From Pagrus major (taxonomy: Eukaryota; Chordata; Actinopteri; Spariformes; Sparidae): DNA of 64,000 nucleotides. The DNA is taken from contig NC_133230.1 of NCBI RefSeq assembly GCF_040436345.1, positions 19,788,197 to 19,852,196 on the forward strand. The letters run 5' to 3'. Below the pieces are notes generated by a model, which made no database searches, was not told the origin of the DNA, and worked only from the letters and a program-made list of their open reading frames with translations. How positions within the stretch are numbered: position 1 is the stretch's first letter; each line of letters starts with the position of its first letter. Positions 28,309 to 34,300 of this stretch are shown in pieces. The translations under genes were made by a program, and so were the position numbers.

Positions 28309-31300
28309 TCAGCTGAACGTCCACACCTCCAGCTCCATGACTCGGAAGTCATCGGTTTCGGAGAGGCAACAGTTGTTGAAGGTGTAGCAGGGGCTGCTGC
28401 GACCTAGGTACAAATTCTCATCCACCCACAGCCCAAAGTGACCACTGCAGGAAAAAGACACAAGTGGTAAAGAAAGAGAAATGTTTTGGGTTTTTTTTGT
28501 CCCTTTTCTTTGTAATAAAGGCTGACAAGATTCCAGAATAAAGTACATAACATTGAATGCAAGAGAGAAAGTAGAAAAGACATATAAAAAAAAAAACATT
28601 ACCTGCCTCCACCAATGGCAAAGGAGTCCAAGTCTCCTTTAATAAAAAATGAGTTCTCTCCAGTCCATCTGAAGCACTGCGGAGAAAAGGCAAAAACAAT
28701 CACAACGCTTCTCAAACTGATGACTTACTCCGCACCTTTAATTAGAGCACTTTAAAGGAATTTTTTTCATGATCTTCTGACAATTTCACAACAACGAACA
28801 TCAAATGCAGGATGGATTTGTGATGTTCAGCAGATATTTTACAGACTGGCTGAGCTAACAGTACTACAGTCACACTCCTGGAGATGGCTGTGGCGTGCGG
28901 CACCTTGAAGCGAGGACGCAGCATGAAGAGGAAAGTTTCTCCAGTGCCGTAGAACGTCTCACTGAGCCTCAGTGGGTGGGAGAGGAAGGCCCCGAATATC
29001 TGACGATGGAAAGTCACAAGAGAGCAGCATTTGTAAAAGAAGAATATGCACATTTTGGGGAGCCGGAGGTCCCTCAGCAGATGATCGACATGATTAAACT
29101 CACACGTTACTCATTATTTAAATACGAATGAAATGTGTAGACCTGGATCAAAATACCAGCAACATTATATTACCAGTATTATTATCCATCTGTCCATGTT
29201 AATAACATGTGGACAGGGAATGTTCCTCTCTGGTTTGAATTAACGTCGCTGGAGTTGGTGAAAGATCTAGGTTATTTCATTGTTCTATAGAGGTTATTTG
29301 GGCATTTTGCTGAAAATAACTGAAAAAGTAGTGTAATAAGTGATACATGACTCTACGCAGACAGTAATATTGTAATGTAATATATTACTTTAAAATGAAG
29401 GTAACTAGTAATATGTAATATATTGCATTTTGAAAGTAACTTGCCCAACACTGTTGCCTGTAGGCCAATTTATTTCCCTAGAATAATTTTATTTCATTTC
29501 AGTTGCATTTGTTGTAACTACAATCACAACAGCAACAACAAAACAAAACAATTAAGCATCAGTATTTTCAGATGTTTAGCTACATGTCGGTTTTAACTGA
29601 AAACTCGTCATTTACAGGCGAAATTATTCAGATTTCCAGAGAGAAAAGCGGAAGATCGAGTTTAGAAAACAAAAAAAACCACCAACAATTACAGCCAGGT
29701 CTATTCTCTATTACACCACAGGTCTTCATCTGTTTCAATGAAAACTTAAGGAGCGAATATTAGGACAGCTGTTGTAAAGTCACTCCCTGACTTGTTCAGG
29801 ATCAGAGCGAAGACTGAGGGTGTTTTTCACCGTATAAACGTCAACTTGTAGCCGATCAGTTGTGTGTAAAATACCGAGAAAGTCTTTGCACTTTAGCAAG
29901 AGCCTGGTGCTGGTGGCGTATTACTGAATTATCCACCCTGGATAAATGGTGCGGAAACGCCCCAGCGATCGATAATGACAAACAGAAAGAGGCAGCGTAG
30001 CCGAATTTTGACGATGAGTTCGTTTTGTGAATCTTTCCCTCATTATATTAACTGAAATTGAAAATCTATTAAATATATTGTGATGTGCTAAAAAAAATAA
30101 TAATAATAATGATCCTGTAGCTTTTGTCCTCGTCTCTGTGAGCGGGAAGTATTAGCATTTGTATTTGGCCATTTTATTAAATTAATTAATTTGTTTTCTA
30201 CCAAAATATGTGTGTGTGTGTGTGTGTGTGTGTGCGTGCGTGCGTGCGGCAGGCGCGGGCGTGTTCGGCGCGTCCTTAGATGTGCGTTCCATATGACGCG
30301 CGTGCTTTGATCCAAAGCGCGATCCAAGCGCTTTGGATCAAAGCGCGCGCTTTGATTTTTATAAGAGCTCTAGAGTTGTTGTTAGTTTTTCACTTGTGAT
30401 CAGCGACCGAAGCAGACCACACACAGAAACCAGAGTGAGGAGTTACACATCAGTGGACGATTTTCCGCAAGTTTCAAACCAACTCAAAGAAAAAGGAAAA
30501 GAGATGTCTTTATCCGGTTTTTTAAAGCCTATGGTGTTAACAGATAACACTGTTATCATCAATCCAGATGCTGTTAAGCTCATTGTGAACAAACATTTCG
30601 ACAGAATCTCCATAGCACAGTGGAACCTGTTAGCTGATGGATTCTGTGGACCAGGAGTCGACACAACACTGACTGACATGCTTTGTGAAATGACACAGAA
30701 GCTCTCTAAATCAGTCATCAGCGTTGTCTTACCAATGTTAACGAAGAATGGTTCACAGACTGATACAGCTACGGCTTTGGAAAACCTAAACACGCACCTG
30801 GGAGACTCCATCAGCGGTGCTGTTGCTGAAGCTCTTCACGTCACACAGGACAAAAGTAGGGCTGTAGAAAAGCTGACACAACTGATCGAGCAGGAAGTTT
30901 CACTAAAGGTCAAATCTGTTGTAAGTCTGGCCATCAACAGCCCTACTTTGCCGGAAGAGCCTGCAGTTTATGTCTCTGGCTCCGTGTCCAGCGCATCTCT
31001 TTGTCAAATGCTGAAACTTGCTACCACATATCTGAAAAGATGCGCAAGTAAACTGAAACTCAGGCGCCTAAGATGTTGTTCGCTGCCAAAAAGCTCTGAA
31101 TCTACAGCACAGTTCCTGGAATCCTCAGTGAGATGTGAATTGTCTGAGAGCTTGAAATCCAAGGTCTCTGACCTCTCAGTGACTCAGGAAGTGGCTAGCA
31201 TCCTTGACAAATGGTCCAGTGAGACAGCAGAAATCAGAGAAGATGCTGACAGGGCTTCCAGCCCCTCTGGTTATGCTTATGATGCAGCGATTGACATTGT

Positions 31301-34300
31301 CAACATTATAAGTGATGACATCCATTATTCTGACCACGGATATGATGAATGCAGTGAGAGCAGTAGAACATCCAAACCTCACTTCAGTATGGGGTCAGTA
31401 CTTAAAGTTGTGAAAGGCCTTTTGGCCTCACGGGTCAATGAACAAAACCAAAAACAGCGCACATGCAGATTTTTCAAGTTTGCCAAGAAGCAATTTGAGA
31501 AAATGAAGTCGGAGCTGGAAACAACAATTAAGAAAGGTGAACATGACTTTACTGTGCCTCTCAGTTGGGATTCAGGGTTCTCTCAGGCTAAACTCAAAAA
31601 AGAGGATGCCTCTGAAGACTATTTCAATCTACCAGGAGAGGTTCCAGAGACTCCAAGGCCCAAATCTGAGGCCAGCAGTCCAACCGGGAAGACCATGTTA
31701 ATCAGTGTGAAAAAGAAGCTGCATTCTTCAATAGAATTTGAGACAATCAAGAACGTTGTTACGCTCTTGTATAAAGTATTAATGCTACCAAAGAATCCTG
31801 CAGCACATGAAAAATACATAGAAGACAAACTAGAGAACATGATCAGGCACTTTTCAAAAGAATTGACTAACAAATTGTATGATCATTTAAATGATACCCA
31901 CACATACCAAATTCCCTTGCCACCATCTGGAAGACGTGTCTCTGAATGTGTCATATCTAATGTCAGCACGAAGGTGAATGACAATCAGTGCAGCCTCTCT
32001 CCTGACGTTATTTATGCCATTACAGAGGACTTAGTGGGAAGGTTCTTGCAGCAGATAGTGCTCTGGATGGAGAAGGAGCAATCAAAGCAGAGAAGTTACA
32101 GTGAGGAAGTGTCTGGTGCACTAAGCAACATCGAAGACCTAATCACAAAAACAGTGGCCTCACTAGAAGAAAACATAGTCACCGCACCAGAGTCCCCCAA
32201 AGCCAGCGACAAGCAGTCTACAACACCCTACTGTTTAACTCCGGTACTACCTTTCAACGATGATGCTGATAGTGATGATGTAAAACAAAGCAACATTGTC
32301 GATGCGACTTCAGTGACTCAAAACACTGGTTCCTCAGCATCCTCTTCTTCAGAGAGGTCAACCGACAACATCATCGGTCCTCTGGTCCTGAGGATTTTGT
32401 CAAAGGCCCCTCGTAAAACCATAGGCTCCGTTCAGGAGGCAGACATCCACCTCCTCACTGAGCGTCTTTCGGACAAAGCACAGGTTGGGCTCAAATTCAT
32501 GGACAGTACACCTAAAAAGGACAGGGTCAGCATGAGAAAAGTCATCAAAGCTGTGATTAAAGACCTTGAAAAGGAGTTTGGCTCTTCTGAACTGCTACTG
32601 GAGGCTGCACTGGCATCAAACCATCCATCGTTTGATGATGCTGTTTTTAGGTATTTCAAGTTCCACCTGGATGCCCTCAACAGTCCAACTCCAAAGAAGT
32701 GTGCAATTGGCAGGTTCTTTTCAAGGGTAGGAAAAGCTATATCCAAAGCCTTCAGGTGTTGTACCGATGACCGCAAGAGTTGTGACAGCGACAGCGACAC
32801 CTGCACTGACACTCACATTGACACCTCAGTTTCCACTGCCCCAAGCTCCTTTGTAATAATTCAAAGCGTGCAGAATTCATCTTCAGAAACAAGTTCTGAA
32901 ACCAGGACCGCTTTCCGCAGCTCAACTGACTTGAGGTGAAGAATAGCGGTGGTCAAGACCTAGAGAACTTCTTTCTGTCAAGATGATTCCTTCCATCTTT
33001 GCTGTTGCAGTTTCTTGAACCCCTGGCTAGAACGGGTTTCCTCCGAGTTGCTTCGGTTTCCCCGACATTACATTTATAATATAAAAAACAACGCTAGCAT
33101 CATGGGCAGCAGTGATAACTAAATTACCAACTCCATCTTTTTCAAATGACATAATGACAGCAATAAAGATGGAGAGTAGTGGTGACCTAGAGAACTTCTT
33201 TCTGTCAAGATGATCCCTTCCATCTTTGCTGTTGCAGTTTCTTGAACCCCTGGCTAGAACGGGTTTCCTCCAAGTTGCTTTGGTTTCCCCGACATTACAT
33301 TTGTAATATTAAAAAAAAACGCTAGCATCATGGGCAGCAGTGATAACTAAATTACCAACTCCATCTTTTTCAAAATGACATAATAACAATAAAGGTGGAG
33401 AGTAGCGGTGACCTAGAGAACTTCTTTCTGTCAAGATGATTCCTTCCATCTTTGCTGTTGCAGTTTCTTTAACCCCTGGCTAGAACGGGTTTCCTCCGAG
33501 TTGCTTCGGTTTCCCCGACCTTACATTTGGAATATGAAAAAAACTCTAGCATCATGGGCAGCAGTGATAACTAAATTACCAACTCCGTCTTATTCAAAAT
33601 AACATAATAACAACAATACAGAAATTAAAAAATTAAAAATAAAAGGCAAAAACTAAATTTAATTTTGGTTGTGTTTTCCTATGCTGTCAGATGTTGATTC
33701 AGCTATAAATACTAAACATGTTGATGCTAAATAAATGTTGCTTACTTATTACCTGTGGAGTGTGATCATGCAGTTACTTCAAACAAGTCCTTTTTAGTGA
33801 AAGAGAATGGTATGTGGCTTCACTCTGTCCAATGTAGATGGTTTTATGAGTAAATTATTACATTTTAAGACTTCCTGATCAATTTTTAGAATATACCACC
33901 AATTTAAAGATATATATATATAAATATAAACTTAGTTGCAAGTGAAATGGACAGTGTGCAGGAGTCTTTTTCCTGATTTTGTCAGCCTTCGGTCTTCTCC
34001 TACGCACCTGTCGGTCTTGAGGTGTGCAAAAGCTGTACACTGTGAAAGATATAAACTAGGAAATAGCTTTTTAATGTCATATTTCCAAACGTAAGACTTT
34101 AAATCTTGGCAAGCACAGAACCTTTGCAGTGAAGATGTTCTGAATCAGGCACTGGCAGAGCTGAGTCAGCTCAGGACCAACGCATTGGACACACAATTTA
34201 TCCAAGAGGCCTTTCAGAACAGTGAAGATGAAGTTTTACATGGGATTGCCTGATGTCTTTGGGTTTCAGCTATGTGAGCCCCACATTACCTTCACAAACC

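Follow-up and report, generated by a model that had tools for sequence, protein, structure and literature searches.

Open frames that change fast: a multi-copy, single-exon gene family in Pagrus major

Piscidins are cationic amphipathic peptides of fish. The finTRIM genes of teleosts are multi-copy, lie in clusters on several chromosomes and are described as showing lineage-specific expansions and positive selection (PMC2657112). A survey of the European sea bass lists single-exon protein genes, of which some have a Ka/Ks that exceeds 1 (PMC8207432). Here we consider a long frame in the window, by which we mean the whole 64,000-nt stretch of Pagrus major DNA that was analysed. In all probability this frame is a functional-looking copy from an old, uncharacterised multi-copy, single-exon protein-coding gene family whose copies break and die. 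The family is real, selected and not described in the libraries searched, and its window member is neither a lone orphan nor a chance frame. A search of the open-access literature by keyword only, which is a weak negative, found no papers describing it.

The window frame, its host intron and its paralogs

The coding frame occupies 30504-32939 on the plus strand as a single exon of 811 aa followed by TGA, without intron (the surrounding stop-to-stop frame, 30297-32936, has 880 codons); it is supported by the reading of the frame itself, by its paralogs and by a frame-maintenance simulation. The preliminary description of an intact intronless 811-codon gene had these coordinates exactly, and its placement of the gene between TLDc exons at 35148 and 28999 is borne out by the flanking exons, which match Pfam TLD on the minus strand (window:35124-35369:-, E 3.4e-10; window:28745-29110:-, E 6.6e-8; a third piece at 28602-28724 falls short of the cut-off). 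Direct reading of the splice sites (exon end at 35148 followed by GTAAAA; acceptor ending in GTCAG, exon start at 28999) defines the host intron as 29000-35147, a GT-AG intron of 6,148 bp in the minus-strand TLDc gene, in which the window frame is nested antisense. The TATA box and poly(A) signals reported earlier are also present in the sequence, as a TATA-box-like TATAAG at 30360-30365 and four AATAAA hexamers at 33162, 33388, 33638 and 33730 (within 33162-33735), all on the plus strand and all consensus matches only.

Elsewhere in the window, a 1,565-codon open exon on the minus strand (449-5143) matches Rlf/ZN292-type zinc-finger protein models, and a plus-strand exon at 53142-53642 matches the mitochondrial fission regulator family (Pfam PF05308, E 6.6e-10). 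An open stretch with an EF-hand-like motif lies at 20307-20576 on the plus strand, which we presume is perhaps selenoprotein N.

The gene had been taken to stand alone, a view overturned by a six-frame tblastn search of the window protein against its own genome (785.9 Mb, 25 contigs), which gave 41 matches at the cut-off of E ≤ 0.001 from 45 candidates scored. Similarity of the paralogs to the window protein is significant, stays in one frame and covers most of the length. Of the 19 regions fetched, 14 contain a single long frame of the family (512-960 aa from the chosen ATG): the window copy, one further on contig C16, and others on C19 (four), C4 (three), C22 (two) and C8, C1 and C2 (one each); the other five regions (C5, C6, C7 and two on C8) hold pieces or broken frames only. 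Twelve of the 14 long frames have the full layout; of the other two, L041 is shortened in its interior and L042 is made up largely of 51-bp repeats. Identity to the window protein is 53-56% for nine copies, 45% for L041, 29% for L042 and about 25% for L043 and L044, which are 68% identical to each other and form a distant second subfamily, B. When L044 served as query, further broken loci came up on C18 and C2, with fragments on C7 and C4, which brings the family to at least 11 contigs.

The predicted product and the upstream region

Searches of the window protein and of the paralog alignment against Pfam, NCBIfam and PDB sequences returned no credible match, only scattered sub-threshold hits, and at this sensitivity the earlier statement that no domain could be recognised is correct. 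No transposase, integrase or reverse-transcriptase domain was matched in the same libraries, profile searches of the window protein gave no RING, B-box or B30.2 domain, and no significant profile match indicated internal repeats between the helical blocks. Inspection by eye recognised no signal sequence in the window protein. Two candidates were set aside: T4_Rnl2_C, hit by 2 of 10 members with a best E of 0.0022 and taken as chance, and 73 pattern matches in viral contigs, none of which was confirmed. AlphaFold runs on the single sequence gave an almost wholly helical model for the whole protein at a pLDDT of 37.9, which carries no confidence, and a pLDDT of 40.0 for residues 615-770.

One segment stands out. 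A cationic, amphipathic C-terminal segment rich in Phe, Val, Gly and Lys (codons 734-754, 32703-32765 on the plus strand) recurs as a helix motif in all 14 long frames of both subfamilies, which counts as conservation and not as independent discovery because the search pattern was written from the paralog alignment. Its hydrophobic moment is 0.50-0.86 across the 14 frames; in the window segment the best 18-mer reaches 0.87, the highest among the cationic windows listed, and a fraction of 0-0.0225 of 2,000 shuffles per 18-mer attains the observed moment. In 11 of the 14 frames a cysteine comes after the helix, still inside the 21 matched residues (L041, L043 and L044 are without it), and L042 carries the motif in triplicate. 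From its sequence, the segment is a putative membrane-docking tail. A 17-aa (51-bp) Ser-rich internal repeat has been expanded in frame among L037, L038, L039, L040 and L042; tandem-repeat search with TRF gives 4.1, 5.9, 9.9 and 16.8 copies in paralogs, and the window copy has about one unit.

Upstream, we scanned the 500 bases before the start of 17 family loci. CTTTGAT, in either orientation, occurs 2-9 times in 15 of the 17, including both members of the distant subfamily, against 0.06-0.17 expected in each. An exact CRE, TGACGTCA, is found in 10 of these loci, an exact NRF1-like 11-mer, TGCGCATGCGC, in 11 and an ETS motif, CACTTCCG, in 8, counts that are not independent samples because the copies are related. 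We take CTTTGAT to be TCF/LEF-like and assume the usual CREB/CREM, NRF1 and ETS assignments for the others. The window copy has three CTTTGAT-type sites (CTTTGAT at 30305 and 30350 on the plus strand and ATCAAAG at 30337, together 30305-30356, by motif search) besides its TATAAG; the exact CRE, NRF1-like and ETS motifs are absent from its 500 upstream bases, and for this reason the hint of germline activity is weak for the window copy.

We propose that the family encodes a soluble protein, largely helical and rich in Ser and Thr, that would dock on membranes through its C-terminal cationic amphipathic helix and the neighbouring, possibly lipidated, cysteines, and whose helical body, having diversified, would bind a partner that itself changes fast. 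The driver would be molecular conflict, preferably in the germline or early embryo, with antiviral or antibacterial defence as the main alternative; we lean to the former because CRE, NRF1-like and CTTTGAT motifs occur upstream of the paralogs and no interferon element is common to them. This membrane-docking conflict mechanism is put forward tentatively, as somewhat less probable than its opposite.

A related and slightly more doubtful possibility is an immune effector family, with paralogs diversifying against pathogens and a cationic C-terminal helix that damages or targets membranes. The strongly amphipathic, cationic character of that helix would suit such a role, and the expansion, positive selection and clustering of the family resemble finTRIM evolution (PMC2657112). 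However, an ISRE-like GAAANNGAAA is found within the 500 upstream bases of only 2 of the 17 loci, and so is not a common upstream element, and profile searches gave no domain of known immune families.

Flanking DNA and mode of spread

The copies align well beyond their frames. By blastn, homology extends upstream of the start for up to about 0.9 kb between other copies and for about 0.3 kb in the window copy, whose alignable 5′ flank and leader (30137-30503, plus strand, from blastn of the fetched loci) reach about 367 bases before the ATG, where position 1334 of L031 corresponds to window position 30137. Downstream of the stop the copies also align. Since they have common 5′ and 3′ flanks, duplication at the DNA level, together with the promoter region, is indicated. 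This bears directly on the preliminary reading of the frame as one old retrocopy, its parent gone, that now persists as a single lineage-specific gene. None of the long family frames has an intron, as that reading would predict, and fish commonly have single-exon genes that arose by retroposition (1,585 in sea bass; PMC8207432). Against it, homology between copies continues upstream of the TATA-like site, past the boundary expected of a processed retrocopy, and neither common 5′ flanks of 0.3-0.9 kb that include promoter-like DNA nor loci arranged partly in tandem or inverted clusters would result from mRNA copying; moreover, the six-frame search recognised no intron-bearing, multi-exon parent among the 41 own-genome matches. 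We therefore consider a retrocopy origin of the window gene unlikely, while the founding copy of the family may have been one.

The closest pairs are local, with dS of 0.019 on C22, 0.030 on C4 and 0.036 and 0.067 on C19, values that should be read with the caveat that some close pairs on these contigs could be assembly duplicates. Pairs on different chromosomes are older (dS 0.12 between C4 and C16, 0.19 between C19 and C22), and the window copy differs from L032-L040 by a dS of 0.38-0.45. The family duplicates as DNA, promoter region included, and its copies decay in turn, which we read as birth-and-death turnover.

At or just after the stop codon, TRF detects a tandem array in 11 of the 14 copies with a long frame; the period ranges over 147-446 bp and differs between subgroups, so these 3′ arrays must have arisen repeatedly. 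In the window, tandem-repeat search finds 2.9 copies of a 226-bp unit at 32957-33613 (plus strand); 10 other paralogs have, at this place of their 3′ ends, independent arrays of different period. In several copies the array takes in the end of the coding region. A common 3′ core of about 110 bases, in which the window copy lies at a Jukes-Cantor (JC) distance of 0.18-0.58 from other loci, in our view resembles the tail of a tRNA-derived fish SINE; Rfam gave no match in window 29000-35200 or 18000-64000. Just upstream of 3′-core repeats at C17:3326200-3329900 there is a 218-codon open stretch (L057:2199-2852), unrelated to the family by tblastn.

Could the frame instead belong to an undescribed mobile element, as its coding part? 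Wide dispersal over at least 11 contigs would fit, as would an upstream block that is common to other copies and lies inverted relative to the gene in L041 (L041:500-966), and the occurrence of the 3′ core at eight loci without a protein match (three of these were fetched, and no family frame was present in them). The ages of the pairs point the other way, the closest being local (dS 0.019-0.067) and those between chromosomes older (dS ≥ 0.12); no transposase or viral domain was found, and a self-inverted comparison revealed no terminal inverted repeats joining the ends of copies. A mobile element is thus quite improbable, and we retain DNA-level duplication of a gene family as the preferred reading.

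Frame maintenance, rapid change and comparison with known systems

It had been argued that a neutral frame of this length would hardly stay open by chance, and simulation upholds the argument. On a seven-copy tree with 699 aligned codons, neutral drift is expected to leave a mean of 9.0-12.0 stops per copy; the simulated window copy accumulated a mean of 12.0 and a minimum of 5, and none of 200 replicates was stop-free, whether all seven copies or the window copy alone was considered. Because the neutral simulation never left the window copy without stops, we conclude that its frame is guarded. Ten pairwise nucleotide alignments contain 110 gaps, of which 94 have a length divisible by three and 16 do not.

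At the same time the protein changes fast. The maximum-likelihood (M0) omega over the seven copies is 0.99, indistinguishable from 1 (LRT 0.02, p 0.88); in IQ-TREE the likelihood falls by 0.2 log units when omega is set to 1, assuming that the option truly held it fixed. NG86 estimates for the window copy are mostly lower (0.66-0.82 against nine paralogs, 0.99 against L041). The window branch has an omega of 1.12-1.19 versus 0.98 elsewhere, a difference that is not significant. Site models favour a class above 1 (M1a/M2a LRT 34.9, p 2.6e-8; M8a/M8 LRT 35.7). We ran them with our own code, holding branch lengths at their M0 values and taking paralogs, not orthologs, as input; gene conversion among the paralogs, or mutation at CpG sites, could inflate these tests. 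In the full set the class comprises 18-19% of codons at an omega of about 2.7, and with gap-adjacent columns removed and five or four well-separated copies the M2a LRT is still 26.1, 16.1 and 13.8, with 12-25% of codons at omega 2.4-3.2. Only 12 codons pass a posterior of 0.9 for omega above 1, and three pass 0.95.

The frames are thus kept open, yet amino-acid replacements accrue at about the rate of silent changes, and a minority of family codons lies above an omega of 1. The preliminary description had named a dN/dS near 1, together with an absence of plus-strand transcripts, as grounds for rejecting the gene; a dN/dS near 1 is what maximum likelihood gives, but here it does not imply neutrality, because stops are absent and site models give codons above 1. 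That the frame is decaying or neutral and just happens to be open would agree with the overall omega (0.99), but is scarcely tenable when none of the 200 simulated window copies stayed open and 14 paralogous frames are open. A simple dN/dS filter would discard such a frame, with hundreds of codons open at an overall omega of about 1.

Taken as a whole, the explanation that joins a duplicating, frame-guarded, fast-changing family to a membrane-docking conflict mechanism seems to us evenly poised between right and wrong. A bolder formulation, which we offer as speculation and think doubtful, is an undescribed vertebrate arms-race family of intronless helical proteins, their bodies positively selected and the membrane-binding C-terminal helix fixed, remodelled by repeats (51-bp internal repeats, and tandem duplications that recur at the 3′ end of the coding region and in the 3′UTR) in a conflict that involves the germline, the early embryo or pathogens. 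With a C-terminal helix that is fixed and a body that diversifies, the 14 paralogs make a ready set for finding the driving partner. Should the family act in the germline or in immunity, it would give fish reproduction or defence a participant so far unannotated.

Among known systems, finTRIM genes are alike only in their mode of evolution (multi-copy, clustered, expanded and positively selected) and differ in having RING, B-box and B30.2 domains, none of which was matched in the window family. The sea bass genes are single-exon protein genes, as here, but the survey pairs them with multi-exon parents, whereas the window family has no recognised parent (PMC8207432). With the TLDc-domain gene the frame shares only position, antisense in its intron, and unlike its host the window protein has no TLD match. 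Piscidins, to which we liken the C-terminal segment, are likewise cationic and amphipathic; they are peptides, whereas the segment of the window family forms the tail of a 500-960 aa protein.
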